Made by a program: the position numbers and the translations under genes | The notes under the pieces: generated by a model | The model's input: only the letters and a program-made list of their open reading frames with translations | Told to the model about the DNA's origin: nothing | Databases searched by the model: none | DNA from: Leptolyngbya sp. NIES-2104 | GTDB lineage: Bacteria; Cyanobacteriota; Cyanobacteriia; Leptolyngbyales; Leptolyngbyaceae | Reading direction: 5' to 3' | Assembly: GCF_001485215.1 (NCBI RefSeq) | Contig: NZ_BBWW01000001.1 | Location: 2,790,001 to 2,854,000 of the forward strand | Length of the DNA: 64,000 bases | Shown here: positions 9,589 to 30,700 of the stretch, in pieces | Position numbering within the stretch: position 1 is the stretch's first letter | How the letters are laid out: each line of letters opens with the position of its first letter

Positions 9589-10000
9589 GCAAAATTTTTC
9601 CTTTTTAAGTGCGACAAAGAATCAAACTTGGAACGTGAAAACGATTCGATCGCACAACAAAGCGTCGGATGCAATACAACATTACACCGAATCAGAACAA
9701 ACACTAAAAACCCATCGGTTCCGATCTGTTATCTAGAACACATCAGAATACAACGATTCAAATTGTTTTAATTCCAACTGCAAATCACTAAATTGTGCTT
9801 CCTGACAATGCCCGCTATATGTCTGGAACTTCTTTTAGATAGTGCATAAAATCACCGTGTTTACTGCCTTTGGGCGTGAAAGCAATTTCAAAAACCAAAC
9901 TAAAATTGCTTTTTTGCTTATAGAGCGATCGGAATTCAAAACTCTCAAATTTTGGTTATTCCTATTTCCAGGGTAATCTGTACCCCGCAGTTTAGTCAAC
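9589..10000. other. 412-base intergenic region with an orphan terminator
   Basis: AT-rich, no convincing gene; a 74-codon minus-strand frame at 9835-10059 overlaps the Trm1 gene and looks spurious. The only clear structure is a plus-strand terminator-like hairpin at 9881-9915. Confidence 0.5.
9881..9915 (+). terminator. Orphan terminator-like hairpin
   Basis: AGCAATTT (9881-9888) pairs with AAATTGCT (9903-9910), followed by a T run. No plus-strand gene precedes it, so it may end a small RNA transcribed from the left part of this gap, or be chance. Confidence 0.45.
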
Positions 10001-11104
10001 TTAACTTCGACGAAAGGCGAATGATTTTGCCGCTCGAATACAAGTCGGTAAATCGGCATCGGTTTTAATCGCTTCTCGATCGATGTGCGTCAAACTCGCC
10101 CGGTGTCCCCAATCCCGCAAGGTTTGGATCAAATAATTCGATTTTGGAATGTCTAATTTTCCGCGTCGTCCAATCTCGCCCAATGTATAGAAGTACGGCG
10201 GCATTTCTGCTTCCATAGACATCAGTTCTAATAATCGAATCTGTGCTGTCCAGTTCCAATCTTTTGCCAATTCGATCATTTGGGCAATTTGACCCGCATC
10301 ATGCAGATGACCTAACCACATTGCACCACTCAGAACCAGCGATCGACTATCTAACGAACACTGCGATCGACCTAGTTTTCGCCACTCGACTTTCTGATAA
10401 GTGCCGCACTCATGACAAAACCCTAAAAATCCATAGTTCTGCTCAGTCAATTGAATCGAGGAAACTAACCGCACCATCACGCGATAAGTTTGACCTGTGA
10501 AATAGGAAAACACGGGGATGATACCCATTCCGCGTGATGCGGCTTGTTGTTGCACATTGCCTAGAATTAGTCGCAATCCTTGTTCATGCGCGGCGGGATG
10601 AATTCGAGCGATCGCGCCATAGTCCGCCACACAATTATCCGGGGCACGTCCGGTTACAGTTCGTCCATCGGTGCTCGTTAGATAGATCAGTCCATTAATG
10701 GCACAAGCGCTTAAACTCGCATGAACATACGGAACCGGAGAACCAAAGCCATCCACATCGACTAAGTCATAGTAATTCTGATGGTTATAGCAATCGAAAA
10801 ACACTCGGATTGCATCTCGATCGCTAATTTGATATTGCTCCGGTGGTAATTGCGCTAAGTTCTCCCGCAGTACTGTTTGAGTGTCCGAATTACTATCATT
10901 TGCACAGACAAAATCAGCTTGACTTTCAATCGCGTATCTCAGCGATCGAACTCCGCATCCTGCCATCGCGTCTAACACTCGTAAAGATCCGCGATCGCGC
11001 CGATAGACCGCTGCTGCAAGAACCGCTAAATCTCTCACCGTTTCAGCATTGGGATTGTAGAATGCACTACCGATCGTGAACGTGGCTTTTCCTTCGATCG
11101 TCAT
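10001..11104 (-). CDS. trm1: tRNA (guanine-N2)-dimethyltransferase Trm1
   Basis: Trm1 uses SAM to dimethylate N2 of G26 in tRNA; it is common in archaea and eukaryotes and known from a few bacterial groups including cyanobacteria. The 367-residue product has GKATFTIGSAFYNP at the N-terminus, SAM motif VLDAMAGCGVRSLRYA (about 44-59), the catalytic-loop motif DVDGFGSP, and a C-terminal zinc-like pair (FCHECGTYQK). I chose the ATG at 11104; a TTG two codons earlier overlaps the preceding stop. It is the third gene of a tight operon (TM2/SHOCT - HhH - trm1), with the gaps between genes only 0-2 bases. Confidence 0.94.
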   Translation of the reverse strand: MTIEGKATFTIGSAFYNPNAETVRDLAVLAAAVYRRDRGSLRVLDAMAGCGVRSLRYAIESQADFVCANDSNSDTQTVLRENLAQLPPEQYQISDRDAIRVFFDCYNHQNYYDLVDVDGFGSPVPYVHASLSACAINGLIYLTSTDGRTVTGRAPDNCVADYGAIARIHPAAHEQGLRLILGNVQQQAASRGMGIIPVFSYFTGQTYRVMVRLVSSIQLTEQNYGFLGFCHECGTYQKVEWRKLGRSQCSLDSRSLVLSGAMWLGHLHDAGQIAQMIELAKDWNWTAQIRLLELMSMEAEMPPYFYTLGEIGRRGKLDIPKSNYLIQTLRDWGHRASLTHIDREAIKTDADLPTCIRAAKSFAFRRS

Positions 11105-11625: not shown

Positions 11626-12063
11626 TTATTTAATTCGATCGAGCAATTTCCGGCGTTTTTGTTCAAATTCGTATTCTGAAATTAAACCATCTTCTCGAAG
11701 CTGATCGAGTTCACGCAAACTTTCCGACACACTCACAACGGGATTGGCTGACACATCGAGCGCGATCGCTTCATCATTAAAATTCACATCGAACTCATCA
11801 GGATTCTGAATCAGATAGAATACCGCATCAAATAGCGCTGCAATCCACGCGATTTTGCTGCCTGTGAGTGCCAGAGCTAAATAAATCAAGCACCACCAGC
11901 GCTGTCCTAAATAGAGCTTGTGCAAGCCGACCAGATGAAAGCCACCAAACACCGGAACGGCTCCCACGATCGCTAACAGTGCCGCAACTCTTCGACTTTT
12001 CGCATTCCCCAGCATAAAACCCACTGCGATTCGGTGGCTTTCACTATAACGAAGTTTTGCCAA
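11626..12063 (-). CDS. TM2 and SHOCT domain membrane protein
   Basis: A 145-residue small membrane protein. The TM2 domain spans about residues 24-86: two membrane helices around the hallmark GLHKLYLGQ and a second helix ending in DAVFYLI. The C-terminal 30 residues (LRELDQLREDGLISEYEFEQ) are a SHOCT domain, a short helical module seen at protein termini. Function unknown. First gene of the operon with the HhH protein and trm1. An internal ATG at residue 17 is an alternative start. Confidence 0.85.
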   Translation of the reverse strand: MAKLRYSESHRIAVGFMLGNAKSRRVAALLAIVGAVPVFGGFHLVGLHKLYLGQRWWCLIYLALALTGSKIAWIAALFDAVFYLIQNPDEFDVNFNDEAIALDVSANPVVSVSESLRELDQLREDGLISEYEFEQKRRKLLDRIK

Positions 12064-12160
12064 GTCGCGACCGTTCGCAATTATCCACAGAGGGAAATTC
12101 GCTCGAAAATATCAAGACGCATATACCATTCAAAGAAGGGGCAGTTTCTCAAATTGTGTT

Positions 12161-13567
12161 ATGAAGTTGCAGTCACCGAAAGGTAAAGTTCCTTGGAGAT
12201 CGATCGGGGTTTTTTGTGCGATCGCATCCGCAGCGGGTTTAGTGGCATCGAGTGCGTGGCTCAGTACCCAGTTCATCATCGATCCGCGATCAGTTGTGTG
12301 GATGAACCGCTATCTACCCAAACAAGCCCGAATCCCGGTCAGTGCTTGGGATGACCCGAAAACAATTCAAGAGATTCATTCGGATCTTCGTAAATCGGGA
12401 TTGTTTGCAGGAGAACCGATTCAGGTCGAGACTGCCCTCAAAGACAAGAAGAAACAAACAGACTTGCTCATTCCCATTTTCAAACCGGGACAGGATGGAG
12501 ACGATCGCTTAACAGAACTGCGTGCATACCGATTAGTTCTCAATCCCACTCCGAACAAAAAAGAAGCCCTTCAGTTCGTCAATCAAATCGAGGTGCGGGA
12601 ACTGCGCGAAGATTTTGTTACTGAACCGCTCGTTCGCGCTCGTGTGATTAATCCGAGTTCCGATCGCCCAGTGCCGTTCACAACGGTCTACCGCTTTGAA
12701 GATCGTGCACCTCGAAATGGAGCTTGGTTAACTCTAAACGGCAAATTAAAACAGGGCGATTCGTCGATCGCTTATGGTCAAGTGGTCTATTACAATCCGA
12801 CCACCACGGCGATGAGCGTGATGCTGTCTTGGACAAGTCCTGATGGTGAACTTCCAAGCTGGCAAGCCGTTCCAAAAGGTCGTCCAGCGGAAATGGTCAT
12901 CAATCAGACGGTTGGATTAGAGCCAGATTTTCAGGTGTATCAACTGCGATCGGTAAAGCGTAAAAATATTCCGTTTCAACTCCAGCCGATTTCTCTAAGC
13001 GAAAGCGGACTGAAGTCGAACAATGGAGCCTTTGTAGACGCTTTATTTCTCGCTCGAAGCGGTCTTTGGTCAAACGCTTTGGAATATATGCAATCCGTGA
13101 AGCGTCAGATCGGTTCTGATTGGACAATGAATGCTCAAGCCCAGATGGATCTCGTGGCGCGTCATGCCAAAGTTACGAAAACCCAAGCCGACCAACCTTG
13201 GGCAAATTCAGGACAGCAAGTTTTAGCAAATCTACTCGACGGACGCTGGGAACGGGCAATTCAATTTGTACAGAATCGAGAGAGCGATCGTACTGAAGTG
13301 CTAGACATGCTCAAGTTCGATCCGGGTCGAGTGCAAAAACGCATCAATGCCGCACTTAACTTTGATCCTGCGCGATCCGATGTGCAGATGTGGGCAGCGT
13401 TGCGGTTGGCATCTCAACAAGGAAAACCGAGTGCGATCGCTTGGTTAGCAAAACAGCCCTCAGATTCCAATGTTCGCCGCACTCAAACGCTGAAATTGAT
13501 CAATGAACTCGATTCGATGACGTTTGGCACTGTGACACCTTCTGCAATCTCTCAAAACAAGAATTAA
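12161..13567 (+). CDS. Conserved hypothetical membrane-anchored protein
   Basis: I do not recognise a named family. The 468-residue protein has one N-terminal membrane anchor (about residues 15-38, IGVFCAIASAAGLVASSAWL) and a large outside domain. Residues about 90-260 are beta-strand-rich with motifs LRAYRLVLNPTP and SIAYGQVVYYNP; residues about 285-450 are helical and Trp/Ala-rich (ALFLARSGLWSNALEYMQSV, MWAALRLASQQGKPSAIAWL), reminiscent of TPR-like helical repeats. It stands alone, divergent from the TM2 operon. Confidence 0.8.
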   Translation: MKLQSPKGKVPWRSIGVFCAIASAAGLVASSAWLSTQFIIDPRSVVWMNRYLPKQARIPVSAWDDPKTIQEIHSDLRKSGLFAGEPIQVETALKDKKKQTDLLIPIFKPGQDGDDRLTELRAYRLVLNPTPNKKEALQFVNQIEVRELREDFVTEPLVRARVINPSSDRPVPFTTVYRFEDRAPRNGAWLTLNGKLKQGDSSIAYGQVVYYNPTTTAMSVMLSWTSPDGELPSWQAVPKGRPAEMVINQTVGLEPDFQVYQLRSVKRKNIPFQLQPISLSESGLKSNNGAFVDALFLARSGLWSNALEYMQSVKRQIGSDWTMNAQAQMDLVARHAKVTKTQADQPWANSGQQVLANLLDGRWERAIQFVQNRESDRTEVLDMLKFDPGRVQKRINAALNFDPARSDVQMWAALRLASQQGKPSAIAWLAKQPSDSNVRRTQTLKLINELDSMTFGTVTPSAISQNKN

Positions 13568-20622: not shown

Positions 20623-20694
20623 GCCCGTGTGGCTCAGTGGTAGAGCACACCCTTGGTAAGGGTGAGGTCACGAGTTCAATCCTCGTCACGGGCT
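20623..20694 (+). tRNA. tRNA-Thr (GGU)
   Basis: A 72-base tRNA ten bases after tRNA-Tyr. The acceptor GCCCGTG pairs with CACGGGC, the anticodon GGT is at 20655-20657, T-loop GTTCAATCC, discriminator T. The Tyr-Thr pair is probably cotranscribed. Confidence 0.97.
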
Positions 20695-20744
20695 TGTTAA
20701 AGGAGATTGCGATCGCATTTTGAAATAGACGATCGCACGATAGC

Positions 20745-21245: not shown

Positions 21246-21593
21246 TCATAGGGGTAAGAATTCAATTCGATTCGCAAAATCTTCTAGCTCACCAGCAGTG
21301 GCAAGGAGTTCAAGATCTCTTACACAATCGCCAATGCTGGCAAGTTGCTGATGAGCGTAGATAATGCCACTGAAGGAAATTTCTGCTTGAAGATGAGTTG
21401 CAGCGATCGCGAAAAAATCATCGTCGCGGGTAAAGAGAACTCGTTGTAACTCAGTTGCTCTCGCAAGTACCTCTGGATCTAGAATGCTAGAGCGATCGTC
21501 TTCCTGAACAGTGAGCACATCAATTCCGCGTAGGCGCAGCCCAAACGTAATTTGCCGTGGAACGTTCTCATCCATGTATAGGTTTACAGGCAT
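21246..21593 (-). CDS. DUF5615 PIN-like putative toxin
   Basis: A 115-residue PIN-like protein of the DUF5615 (VapC45-like) type. The N-terminal YMDENVPRQITFGLRLRGID carries the first conserved acidic residues (D/E at about 8-9), ARATELQRVLFTRDDDFFAI the central acidic pair at about 58-59, as expected for a PIN ribonuclease fold. Proteins of this type pair with a DUF433 antitoxin-like partner, which here lies 15 bases upstream on the same strand. RNase activity is inferred from the family. Confidence 0.85.
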   Translation of the reverse strand: MPVNLYMDENVPRQITFGLRLRGIDVLTVQEDDRSSILDPEVLARATELQRVLFTRDDDFFAIAATHLQAEISFSGIIYAHQQLASIGDCVRDLELLATAGELEDFANRIEFLPL

Positions 21594-21608
21594 GGCAAAT
21601 TGTGGGGA

Positions 21609-21923
21609 TTACAGTTTCCCTTGGGCGCGTAGCTTAGCGACGATCGGGGAAGCTCCCGCAGCTTTGCGTTGTTCTTGAGCGAGTTGCAGGCGGCGGTTTA
21701 TATCTGCGTCGATTTCGGATTGGTGATCGCAATAGTAGGCAAGGGCGGAATAAATTTGGCTAAGGGAGATATGGGGATATTGAAAGTGCAGTTCGGCAGG
21801 ACTCCAGCCATAGGTAAGGTGAGCGGTAATGAGTTCGACGACTTTCATTGTGGTGCCAGCGATGTAGGGAATCTGGTCATCACTGAGGTTGATGTACTTG
21901 TAGTCGGTCGAATGGAAAGTCAT
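21609..21923 (-). CDS. DUF433 domain putative antitoxin
   Basis: A 104-residue protein with the DUF433 pattern: PYIAGTTMKVVELITAHLTY (HTH-like start), GWSPAELHFQYPHISLSQIY and a C-terminal ANRR-like helix ending VAKLRAQGKL. DUF433 proteins are predicted DNA-binding antitoxins of VapB45 type. I chose the ATG at 21923 (MTFHSTDYKYI); an in-frame TTG six codons upstream is possible. Forms a pair with the DUF5615 gene that follows 15 bases later. Confidence 0.85.
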   Translation of the reverse strand: MTFHSTDYKYINLSDDQIPYIAGTTMKVVELITAHLTYGWSPAELHFQYPHISLSQIYSALAYYCDHQSEIDADINRRLQLAQEQRKAAGASPIVAKLRAQGKL

Positions 21924-22229
21924 GGGGTGATGAAAGTGCAACTTGTCGCCATTTTAGCATTGCCATGTTTGACGAAGCGCGATCGCTGGCAGAGTGCGAT
22001 CGCAATGATTATCGATACATTTGCGGAAATGCGATCGCAGATTGCACCCTGTACGATCGCCCAATTAGCGAAAGATCGAGGTGATTGCGATCGCTGATTC
22101 AGGGCTTGTACAGTGAGTCGCGAAAAGAATCGAAATATTTTTCGTAATTCTCAAGCCTCAAGGAGATTTCTATGTTATCCCTGTATCTAATTTGACGAAT
22201 CATTTGTTCTGCTAGTCACTCGTTGCCCT

Positions 22230-23486
22230 ATGTCTCAGTTCATGACTCACGACGAACTCTTGAAGCTGATTGACCAAGCAGCGGCGGAAGATTGGGAGGT
22301 GCTTGATTTGTCGCAGCAGGGGCTGGAGTCGTTGCCATCGGAGATTGGAAAGCTGACCGGGCTAAAAATACTTGATCTTTCTGGCAATCAATTTACAGTC
22401 ATTCCAGAGGGGATTGCCCAACTGACCAATCTCACCCGGCTTTACCTCTCTGACAACCAAATCACGACCATCTCGGATACGATTGCTCAACTAACTCAAC
22501 TAATGAGTCTCATAGGGCTTTACCTCTCTGGCAACCAAATCAGAGTTATCCCGGATGCAATCGCTCAACTGACGAATCTCGCAGTGCTTCACCTCTCTGT
22601 CAATCAAATCACAATCATCCCGGATGCGATCGCTCAACTGACGAATCTCCCGGAGCTTTATCTTTCTATCAATCAAATCACGATCGTCCCGGATGCGATC
22701 ACCCAACTCACTAACCTTATACGGCTTGACCTCTATAGCAACCAGATCACAGAAATTCCTTCATCCATTACATCACTGCCTAAGCTAGAAGAACTTGACC
22801 TGCGTCGTAATCCGCTTAGCATTCCAAAGGACATTTTAGATTCTGATTCCTCCACACGAGAGAGACACAAACTTCCAGCCGCCAAACCCATCCTCGACTA
22901 CTACTTCACCACCCGCGACCCCGACCAAACCACCCACCTCCTCGAAGCCAAACTCCTCATCGTCGGTGAAGGAGGAGCCGGAAAAACCAGCCTCGCCCAA
23001 AAACTCTTAAACTCCGACTACAAACTCACTCCCGAAACCGAAGATACTTCCACCCAAGGCATCGACATCCTCAAATGGGAATTCACCGGAACCAACGGCA
23101 AACCCTACTGCATCAACATCTGGGACTTCGGTGGACAAGAAATCTATCACCAAACCCACCAATTCTTCCTCACCGAACGATCGCTCTACCTGCTCGTCGC
23201 CGATAGCCGCAAAGAAGACACCGACCACCCCTACTGGCTGAACATCATCCGCCTCCTCAGCAACAACAGCCCGATCCTCTTAATCCAAAACGAAAAACAA
23301 AACCGCACCTGCACCCTCAACCTGCGCGAACTCCGCGCCGAATTCGATGCCCTCCACACCCCCACCCCGATCAACCTCGCCGACAATCGCGGACTCTCAA
23401 CCCTCCGCAAAACCATCCAACACCACCTCGAAGCCCTCCTCGGCGACGGTCTCCCCTTCCCCAACAAATGGCTCAACGGGAGATAA
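22230..23486 (+). CDS. Leucine-rich repeat / Roc GTPase, truncated before COR
   Basis: A 418-residue N-terminal part of a bacterial Roco-type protein. Residues about 22-205 are seven leucine-rich repeats of 23 residues (consensus IPDAIAQLTNLxxLxLSxNQIT); one unit near 82-105 carries a three-residue insertion. Residues about 238-405 are a Roc small-GTPase domain with P-loop GEGGAGKTS (246-254) and G3 motif DFGGQE (299-304). Roco proteins continue into a COR dimerisation domain; here the frame stops right at the Roc/COR boundary (LPFPNKWLNGR). The DNA just after continues open in another frame and encodes a C-terminal module, so the gene looks truncated by deletion plus frameshift. The Roc half is richer in C-ending codons than the LRR half, suggesting a mosaic. 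Confidence 0.85.
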   Translation: MSQFMTHDELLKLIDQAAAEDWEVLDLSQQGLESLPSEIGKLTGLKILDLSGNQFTVIPEGIAQLTNLTRLYLSDNQITTISDTIAQLTQLMSLIGLYLSGNQIRVIPDAIAQLTNLAVLHLSVNQITIIPDAIAQLTNLPELYLSINQITIVPDAITQLTNLIRLDLYSNQITEIPSSITSLPKLEELDLRRNPLSIPKDILDSDSSTRERHKLPAAKPILDYYFTTRDPDQTTHLLEAKLLIVGEGGAGKTSLAQKLLNSDYKLTPETEDTSTQGIDILKWEFTGTNGKPYCINIWDFGGQEIYHQTHQFFLTERSLYLLVADSRKEDTDHPYWLNIIRLLSNNSPILLIQNEKQNRTCTLNLRELRAEFDALHTPTPINLADNRGLSTLRKTIQHHLEALLGDGLPFPNKWLNGR

Positions 23487-23817
23487 CAACCAAGTCAGCA
23501 ACAATACTTTCAATCAAATCAACAATGCCAGCACTGCTGAACTGTTACAACTGATTACCCAACTTCGAGAAAGCGCCACCACTTTCCCCGAAGAAACTCA
23601 GGATGCGATTTTGATCGACTTAGAAGATATCGAAACTGAAATCCAGAAACCAGAGAACGATCGCAACCCGAAAAAACTCAAACAGCGACTCATGGCAGTT
23701 CTCGCAGCCGCAGGAGTTGCCGCAGGGGGTATTTCTCAAGTCACCGACTTTGCCAGTAAAGCGATCGACCTTAGCAACAAACTCGGCATCGAACTCCAGC
23801 TTCCTGGTTCACCCTGA
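23347..23817 (+). pseudogene. Out-of-frame C-terminal module of the LRR/Roc gene
   Basis: The frame from 23347 to 23817 is meaningful only from about 23476 on: GDNNQVSNNTFNQINNASTA, then a helical block (LIDLEDIETEIQK, KLKQRLMAVLAAAGVAAG) ending DLSNKLGIELQLPGSP. This N-rich plus helical module is recurrent at C-termini of cyanobacterial multidomain NTPase, pentapeptide and LRR proteins. Upstream of 23476 the frame is an antiphase reading of Roc DNA (Pro/Ser-rich, no family). There is no good start codon or ribosome site close to the module, so it is probably a remnant of the original C-terminus. It could be expressed if ribosomes shift frame near 23470. Confidence 0.6.
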
Positions 23818-23873
23818 AACCCCTCTGATATTTCTCATGTCAAAATAACGGTAGATGTCACTCAATCTTCTGT

Positions 23874-24236
23874 ATGCAAATCACGCTCGACATTCCTGAA
23901 GCACTACTCACCAGACTGAATGCGATTGATCAAAGTCTGCCTCAAGTCCTGGAATTGGCACTAGACGAATTGACAGCTAGACCCCAATCCGGATTCACAG
24001 GATTTGCAGAAGTTTTAGAATTTCTTGCCAATCTACCAACTCCAGAAGAGATTCTAGCCTTGCGCCCTTCAGAAACACTACAAGCTCAAATCGATCAGCT
24101 TTCCGAGAAACATAAAGCCAATGCGCTGACACTTCAAGAGCAGCAACTCTGGCAACAGTACGAATACCTTGAGCATCTAGTCAGTTTGGCAAAAGCGAAA
24201 GCTTATCTGAAGCTTCAATCCAATTTGCATGAGTAA
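23874..24236 (+). CDS. Hypothetical partner of HNH nuclease (antitoxin-like)
   Basis: A 120-residue acidic protein. The N-terminus (MQITLDIPEALLTRLNAIDQ) resembles the beta-strand plus helix start of VapB-like and UPF0175-like small regulators; the C-terminal half is helical with LRPSETLQAQIDQLSEKHKA and WQQYEYLEHLVSLAKAKAYL. No named domain. It overlaps the next gene by eight bases (ATGAGTAA), so translation is coupled. I recall this small protein plus HNH pair as recurrent in cyanobacteria, which suggests a functional two-gene unit. Confidence 0.75.
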   Translation: MQITLDIPEALLTRLNAIDQSLPQVLELALDELTARPQSGFTGFAEVLEFLANLPTPEEILALRPSETLQAQIDQLSEKHKANALTLQEQQLWQQYEYLEHLVSLAKAKAYLKLQSNLHE

Positions 24237-24651
24237 AACCTATGTTCCAGCTTCATTGCGTCGCAACGTTGTAGAACGTGCAGGTAGCTGCTGCGAGTAC
24301 TGTTTGCGCCCAGAACTATTCTCGTTGAGCGTTCATGAAGTCGATCATGTGATTGCAGAAAAGCATGGGGGTACAACAACTGAGGACAATCTCGCGCTTG
24401 CCTGCAAACTCTGTAACACGTTCAAAGGAAGTGATATTGCGTCGATCGATCCAGAAACAGATGAAATCACTGCTCTTTATCATCCAAGACGCGATCGCTG
24501 GTCAGAGCATTTTCAATTGGAAAATGCAGCATTCATCCCTTTATCTGATCGCGCAAGAACCACGATCCGACTCCTTCAACTCAATCGCAGTCGAATTTTG
24601 AAGGAGCGATCGCTGTGGCTTGATTCTGGATTGATCAAGATTCCAATCTAA
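24229..24651 (+). CDS. HNH endonuclease
   Basis: A 140-residue HNH nuclease. The zinc-bound beta-beta-alpha-metal core is CEYC (about 22-25), VHEVDHVIAEKHGG (about 38-51, with the catalytic His) and the NLALACKLCNTFKG segment (about 56-69, with the Asn and second CxxC). The C-terminal half (ALYHPRRDRWSEHFQLENAA) is typical of the cyanobacterial subgroup. No intein, group II intron or phage context. The upstream partner overlaps it, so this may be a toxin or defence nuclease. Its stop overlaps the stop of the convergent nitrilase gene by three bases. Confidence 0.9.
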   Translation: MSKTYVPASLRRNVVERAGSCCEYCLRPELFSLSVHEVDHVIAEKHGGTTTEDNLALACKLCNTFKGSDIASIDPETDEITALYHPRRDRWSEHFQLENAAFIPLSDRARTTIRLLQLNRSRILKERSLWLDSGLIKIPI

Positions 24652-30274: not shown

Positions 30275-30700
30275 ATGATTCACAACTTTTCCCGTGTTGT
30301 TCGTTTTTTGACATCTGCTATGAATTTTCGTTCTTCGTTGGTTCTGAGTTTTCTCAGTCTTGGATGTGGTGCAACGGTTTGGGGAATCGATGCAATCGTG
30401 GCTCCGGTCGCGGTTCAAGCGTATACGGCTCGTGTTGAAGTGATCCTCGATCGAGCGGCGAATGAATCGTATGAAGGAATGGTGCGACGAGCGGAATTAG
30501 TCGCACGAACGGCGGCGCAACGGGGATTCGATCGCGATTTGTTAGCGAATGAAGTGTCGATTGTGGTGGTGGGGCGAAATGGTGGAATGGCGGCTCCGGT
30601 GGTCACGCTGTGGGTGACGCGATCGCAGTGGCAGCAACGCCCAGAAGCGCGACGATGGGCGACGTATTATCGGAATTCGTCGAGATTATTGGGATTTTAA
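30275..30700 (+). CDS. Secreted hypothetical protein
   Basis: A 141-residue protein with a signal peptide or anchor (about 19-48, SLVLSFLSLGCGATVWGIDA) and a basic, Arg-rich mature part (GMVRRAELVARTAAQRGFDR, VTLWVTRSQWQQRP) ending WATYYRNSSRLLGF. I recall similar cyanobacterial periplasmic proteins without function. The real start may be the internal ATG at residue 16. Divergent from the pseudo-orthocaspase gene. Confidence 0.75.
   Translation: MIHNFSRVVRFLTSAMNFRSSLVLSFLSLGCGATVWGIDAIVAPVAVQAYTARVEVILDRAANESYEGMVRRAELVARTAAQRGFDRDLLANEVSIVVVGRNGGMAAPVVTLWVTRSQWQQRPEARRWATYYRNSSRLLGF

Follow-up and report, generated by a model that had tools for sequence, protein, structure and literature searches.

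A Roco gene of Leptolyngbya sp. NIES-2104, very probably inactivated by a single internal deletion with frameshift

Introduction

LRRK2, the Parkinson's-disease protein, is a large GTPase of the Roco family. Its group also holds the bacterial LRR-Roc-COR Roco proteins, such as CtRoco of Chlorobium tepidum, which are the nearest described counterparts of the gene analyzed here. COR is described in a passage of one paper as mediating the dimerisation of Roco proteins (PMC6337361), and passages of another state that Roc is “invariably followed by” COR and give no clear isolated examples (PMC4104024). Part of a 2021 eLife article presents prokaryotic LRR-AP-GTPase-COR proteins with variable C-terminal domains as predicted counter-invader systems (PMC8195603).

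Here, we describe a Roco locus in a 64,000-nucleotide stretch of the Leptolyngbya sp. NIES-2104 genome (hereafter, the window; genome G000). Like the CtRoco type, the window gene encodes an LRR array followed by Roc, and its intact relatives add COR-A and COR-B; unlike that type, it has lost COR, and its last module lies out of frame. The intact orthologue in a same-genus relative (G004) is also alike in architecture to the counter-invader proteins as that part of PMC8195603 presents them, having LRR, Roc, COR, and a C-terminal module that is also carried by pentapeptide-repeat proteins, whereas the window copy is broken and without COR, its module finds only a weak match in PADLOC, and a defence role is putative. 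A search for literature on broken cyanobacterial Roco genes or Leptolyngbya LRR pseudogenes returned nothing on the subject, as judged by title.

Results

The LRR-Roc frame (418 amino acids [aa]; C terminus ...PFPNKWLNGR-stop in the ORF list and translation) carried an LRR array (Pfam LRR_8, 5.6e-35) at its N terminus, as prokaryotic Roco proteins do, and then a Roc GTPase domain of the Roco family at residues 241 to 355 (Pfam, 1.6e-25), with P-loop and switch motifs that by eye appear intact. Directly after Roc, where a Roco protein has COR, Pfam found no COR domain in the 418-aa product. A second frame, +1 relative to that of Roc, was open from 23470 to 23817 (115 aa) and encoded an asparagine-rich stretch followed by a part that looks helical by eye. 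Since this tail was 80% identical to the C terminus of the intact Roco protein of G004 (2.0e-53), it is a coding stretch, on homology, and not one open by chance. The first-pass annotation had read the locus as a Roco frame ending at the Roc/COR border with a C-terminal module one frame over, and on this ORFs, Pfam, and homology agree. The features of the locus are as follows.

22230..23486 (+): LRR-Roc frame left over from a Roco gene, 418 aa; the stop is met just past the join
22950..23294 (+): Roc GTPase domain (Pfam PF08477, 93 bits)
23478..23479 (+): join left by the deletion; relative to G004, about 1076 bp are gone, comprising nearly all of COR-A, COR-B, and a linker
23484..23486 (+): TAA stop of the Roc frame, beginning at the sixth base past the join
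23479..23817 (+): what is left of the C-terminal module, +1 relative to Roc and unreachable from the LRR-Roc start
23347..23817 (+): mechanical ORF of 156 aa that includes the tail
23874..24236 (+): next gene, 120 aa, no assigned function; it also adjoins the intact Roco gene in G004

The 156-aa ORF is probably not a gene, since its first 44 codons are Roc coding sequence in the wrong frame; that this stretch is open is likely due to chance, given its composition of 41% C and 15% T.

The orthologue in G004 (L055:9108-12194) is intact, a single frame of 1028 aa in which Pfam placed LRR, Roc (382 to 496), COR-A (552 to 690), COR-B (702 to 850), and then the tail, with COR following Roc. Downstream of it lie the same 120-aa ORF, an extra 205-aa ORF, and the same 269-aa nitrilase-like gene (named by eye). 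On both sides of the gap the two loci align as DNA, window positions 22396-23473 and 23490-24309 with L055 positions 9706-10774 and 11867-12694, and homology runs on, with some insertions and losses, to window position 30417, where the fetched stretch ends. The break reported in the first-pass annotation is thus real, although its position had to be revised: split alignment places the join at 23478 or 23479 when G004 is the reference, and at 23478 with a second same-genus genome, G005. The length missing relative to G004 is 1076 bp, a multiple of three plus 2, a size measured mainly against this one intact same-genus relative. No exact 7-mer is shared between the 60-nucleotide (nt) neighbourhoods of the two deletion ends, in G004 or in G005, and the join looks illegitimate; in G005, the two deletion-end partners are imperfectly alike by eye, which hints weakly at a short-homology event.

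We consider it very probable that the window gene is a Roco (LRR-Roc-COR) gene inactivated by a single internal deletion with frameshift. One deletion would have removed about 1076 bp, from just past Roc up to where the C-terminal module begins. Because this length is not a multiple of three, the Roc frame runs into the stop that follows the join, and the C-terminal module goes untranslated from the start of the gene. The predicted product is an LRR-Roc fragment lacking both COR, the Roco dimerisation domain, and the C-terminal module.

An assembly or sequencing error at the join would be another account, and we regard it as very unlikely. The locus is known from a single assembly, and the other two deletions of this kind (see below) come from fragmented drafts (G005, 380 contigs; G016, 360 contigs), yet the contig that carries the window is 5.7 Mb long, in a genome assembled into five contigs. 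Repeat collapse would lack a substrate, as Roco and tail each match this genome once and the deletion ends share no exact 7-mer, and a homopolymer error could give a frameshift but not a loss on the kilobase scale.

Alternatively, the tail behind Roc might be foreign, brought in not by a simple deletion but by recombination with some other gene that bears such a tail. A G005 protein labeled by eye as a pentapeptide-repeat protein carries a tail that is 80% identical to the window's as protein, and just past the join the window is closer to this pentapeptide tail than to that of G004, with a local DNA identity of 79.8% over 317 bases. Over 333 ungapped bases, however, the window is 78.4% identical to the G004 tail and 75.7% to that of the pentapeptide protein (where a few bases beyond the stop are included), the downstream DNA matches G004 from 23490 through 24309, and the genome holds no second tail as donor, which leaves a foreign tail extremely unlikely.

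Upstream, homology to the G004 locus stops at about window position 22213, just ahead of the Roco start codon; DNA beyond that point finds no match in the fetched G004 stretch, and the upstream gene block lies elsewhere in G004 (C1:172333-174108). That side of the window also holds a DUF433 and DUF5615 (PIN-like) gene pair by Pfam (21246-21941, - strand), which we take to be probably a toxin-antitoxin pair, and, at 20632-20695, downstream of a 516-aa gene, a short dispersed repeat that recurs in several places in G002 and G004 (46 to 48 bp, 83 to 100% identity). An HNH gene that adjoins Roco (24229-24651) is intact in the window; its G004 copy (L055:12610-12930) has a small internal loss and a frame change.

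In relatives, the tail module occurs in more than one arrangement. Its frame is continuous with that of Roc-COR in G004, in G030, and in Pegethrix (L055, L058, and L041), and no tail match was found in L040, L042, or L043. In two metagenome assemblies with a Roc 72 to 74% identical to the G004 one, a 123-aa gene of its own encodes the tail (L045:2704-3075 and L046:2470-2841), downstream of a complete Roc-COR that ends in a short stretch containing asparagine and glycine. In L045, an HNH-like gene (2228-2692, by eye) sits between Roc-COR and the tail gene; the window Roco also adjoins an HNH gene. The module found no match above cut-off in Pfam or NCBIfam, and against PADLOC only weak candidate matches (PDC-M14B, 2.6e-5). 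By eye, it is also C terminal on pentapeptide-repeat proteins, and shorter relatives of it come after a small part that by eye is winged-helix-like (L023 and L028 to L031).

These arrangements bear on two further alternatives. The first, that the window has a natural two-gene layout, with a short Roco and, behind it, the tail as a gene apart, gains from L045 and L046, and separate genes in homologues were what the first-pass annotation had named as evidence against a broken gene. Separate tail genes do exist, so the tail can be a gene of its own, but none of these relatives lacks COR: Roc-COR is complete in L045 and L046, COR is missing in the window, and in G004, the closest relative, every part is fused at the corresponding place. 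Moreover, by eye, the window's tail frame offers no ATG, GTG, or TTG from the join until a TTG inside the module, and the ATG upstream of it, at 23347, sits inside Roc. We judge this layout to be exceedingly improbable.

The second, also raised in the first-pass annotation, is that programmed +1 frameshifting links Roc to the tail. The two frames do overlap, and the tail is intact as coding sequence; nevertheless, the same two parts lie in one frame in G004, G030, and Pegethrix (L041), where no shift is needed. The shift needed here is +1 (or -2), so a -1 slippery site would lead into the wrong frame, and the CCC-rich pyrimidine run CTCCCCTTCCCC ahead of the join is common to G004 and G005. 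Past the join, the RNA is no more stably folded than its shuffled versions (z 0.54); across the join, it is slightly more so (z -0.78), with 45 of 200 shuffles as good. No slippery site (motifs judged by eye), stimulator, or shift in relatives was found, and COR would remain missing in any event. The probability that we assign to programmed shifting is close to nil, and that suggestion is abandoned here in favour of deletion with frameshift.

Whether the missing domain could be supplied from elsewhere in the genome was addressed by profile search. The window's genome gave no match to COR-A (the one COR profile searched), a profile present in 21 of 42 genomes surveyed in its family, and it held no second match to the 418-aa Roco; two further Roc-profile matches fall below the Pfam cut-off. 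The earlier statement that COR is gone thus stands both for the product and, as regards COR-A, for the genome. Across the 42 genomes (the order-level survey comprised as many genomes as the family-level one and so did not widen the sample), a Roc-COR query gave 38 match rows, 31 of which span Roc and COR in one frame, counting as intact the rows with query start at or below 7 and query end at or above 417. The other seven belong to the window's genome, G005 (two), G016 (contig C64, and contig C97 at a contig start), and G013 (contigs C84 and C82, both at contig ends and probably one gene). Among the loci tested, Roc identity to G004 reaches 70% or more in eight distinct genomes besides G004 and the window's (L061/L040 and L056/L044 each counted as one genome); seven of them carry Roc, COR-A, and COR-B in a single uninterrupted frame, and in G005, the remaining one, the gene is itself broken.

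Roco genes of the window type are accessory, since among the eight genus genomes (G000 to G007) strong matches to the 418-aa query were found in three only: the window's genome, G004, and G005. A Roco in G001 is more distant, at 35% identity.

Could the truncated LRR-Roc still function as a GTPase without COR, or serve other proteins as a decoy? The open 418-aa frame, the seemingly intact P-loop and switch motifs, and the purifying selection on Roc described below would all suit such a role. A precedent of another architecture might be seen in three WD40-Roc proteins (G026 and G061) that, by Pfam and among the matches listed, have a strong Roc match (50 bits or more) without COR-A; they stand against COR “invariably” following Roc, as worded in the passages of PMC4104024 cited above, although the region after their Roc may be a diverged COR. 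The remaining strong Roc matches without COR-A give no precedent: four are small and, on reading, single-domain Ras-like GTPases, and the others are G013 C84, cut by a contig end, and the window gene itself. All LRR-Roc loci of the family survey have COR-A once those that are broken or cut by a contig end are set aside, and three distant relatives in which tblastn found no COR (L049, L052, and L054) do have COR-A by Pfam. Together with the lack of a second Roco and of any COR-A match in the genome, these observations make a COR-less function highly improbable.

Selection was gauged from substitutions. Roc gave a pairwise dN/dS of 0.24 between the window and G004, with 17.3 synonymous and 6.7 nonsynonymous changes private to the window. 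The tail has 8 synonymous and 2 nonsynonymous private changes and shows no sign of decay; these are low counts, obtained with three reference tails, of which one belongs to a different gene. Had the whole branch been neutral, 2 or fewer nonsynonymous changes among 10 would be expected with P = 0.0002; a neutral share of up to about a fifth of the branch is compatible (P = 0.07 at 20% and 0.03 at 30%). Because the tail has not decayed, the deletion probably came late. The lack of relaxed selection on Roc would fit a recent event and would equally fit retained function, yet the presumably untranslated tail looks as constrained as Roc, which argues that the time since the deletion is too short for selection to be read. 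In these terms, the proposal of a gene killed by recent deletion and frameshift is supported by the intact G004 orthologue, the 1076 missing bases, and the undecayed tail.

Roc dS between genus members is about 0.3, far below that of the tail (about 1.1), and Roc in the window (22881-23478) and Roc/COR in G004 (L055:10182-11672) contain about 40% C. High C and low Roc dS suggest that codons are constrained or that the history differs. The composition step at the LRR/Roc junction, seen earlier as a sign of recent recombination, is real (GC rises from 47.3 to 55.9% and C from 28 to 41%) but not recent, for G004 has the same step (GC of 46.9% in LRR, 54.7% in Roc, 54.4% in COR, and 47.9% in the tail); the composition mosaic is therefore older than the split of the window genome and G004. 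The LRR units, previously called near-identical, are only 65 to 75% identical as DNA over 134 nt, and with the step shared by G004 the case for recent recombination at this junction falls away.

Two other Roco genes in the survey are broken, each in its own way. In G005 (L056:1-1998), about 239 bp net are lost inside COR and the frame is changed; in G016 (L092:1215-2942), the LRRs lead directly into the extreme end of Roc; the domain is lost, and COR goes on in another frame. Misassembly is possible in both, these being the drafts of 360 to 380 contigs. Finding three distinct out-of-frame deletions in a single gene type suggests that turnover is fast, although three is few.

Discussion

With COR absent from the product, COR-A absent from the genome, and COR present in the intact orthologue, the window gene is the remnant of a Roco gene and not a complete Roco, and it is best called a pseudogene or decaying gene. 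We infer from these comparisons that function has been lost and that the event was recent: the 418-aa fragment is most likely nonfunctional and the gene on its way out. This looks like ordinary recent gene decay in a known family and not like a new mechanism, and as a decayed copy of a known kind of gene the locus has little importance by itself. It is useful for annotation, which should avoid entering the 418-aa product as a Roco that naturally lacks COR, or the tail as a frameshift product.

A broader idea, which we hold to be unlikely, is that Roco genes of the window type are repeatedly lost by internal out-of-frame deletions while their flanks are kept, and that the short LRR-Roc may act temporarily without COR. 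Such recurrent loss would be expected if these LRR-GTPases were switches for conflict or suicide and losing them were at times favoured. The additional pair of broken copies gives a hint that, in cyanobacteria, predicted immune-type GTPases like these turn over fast.
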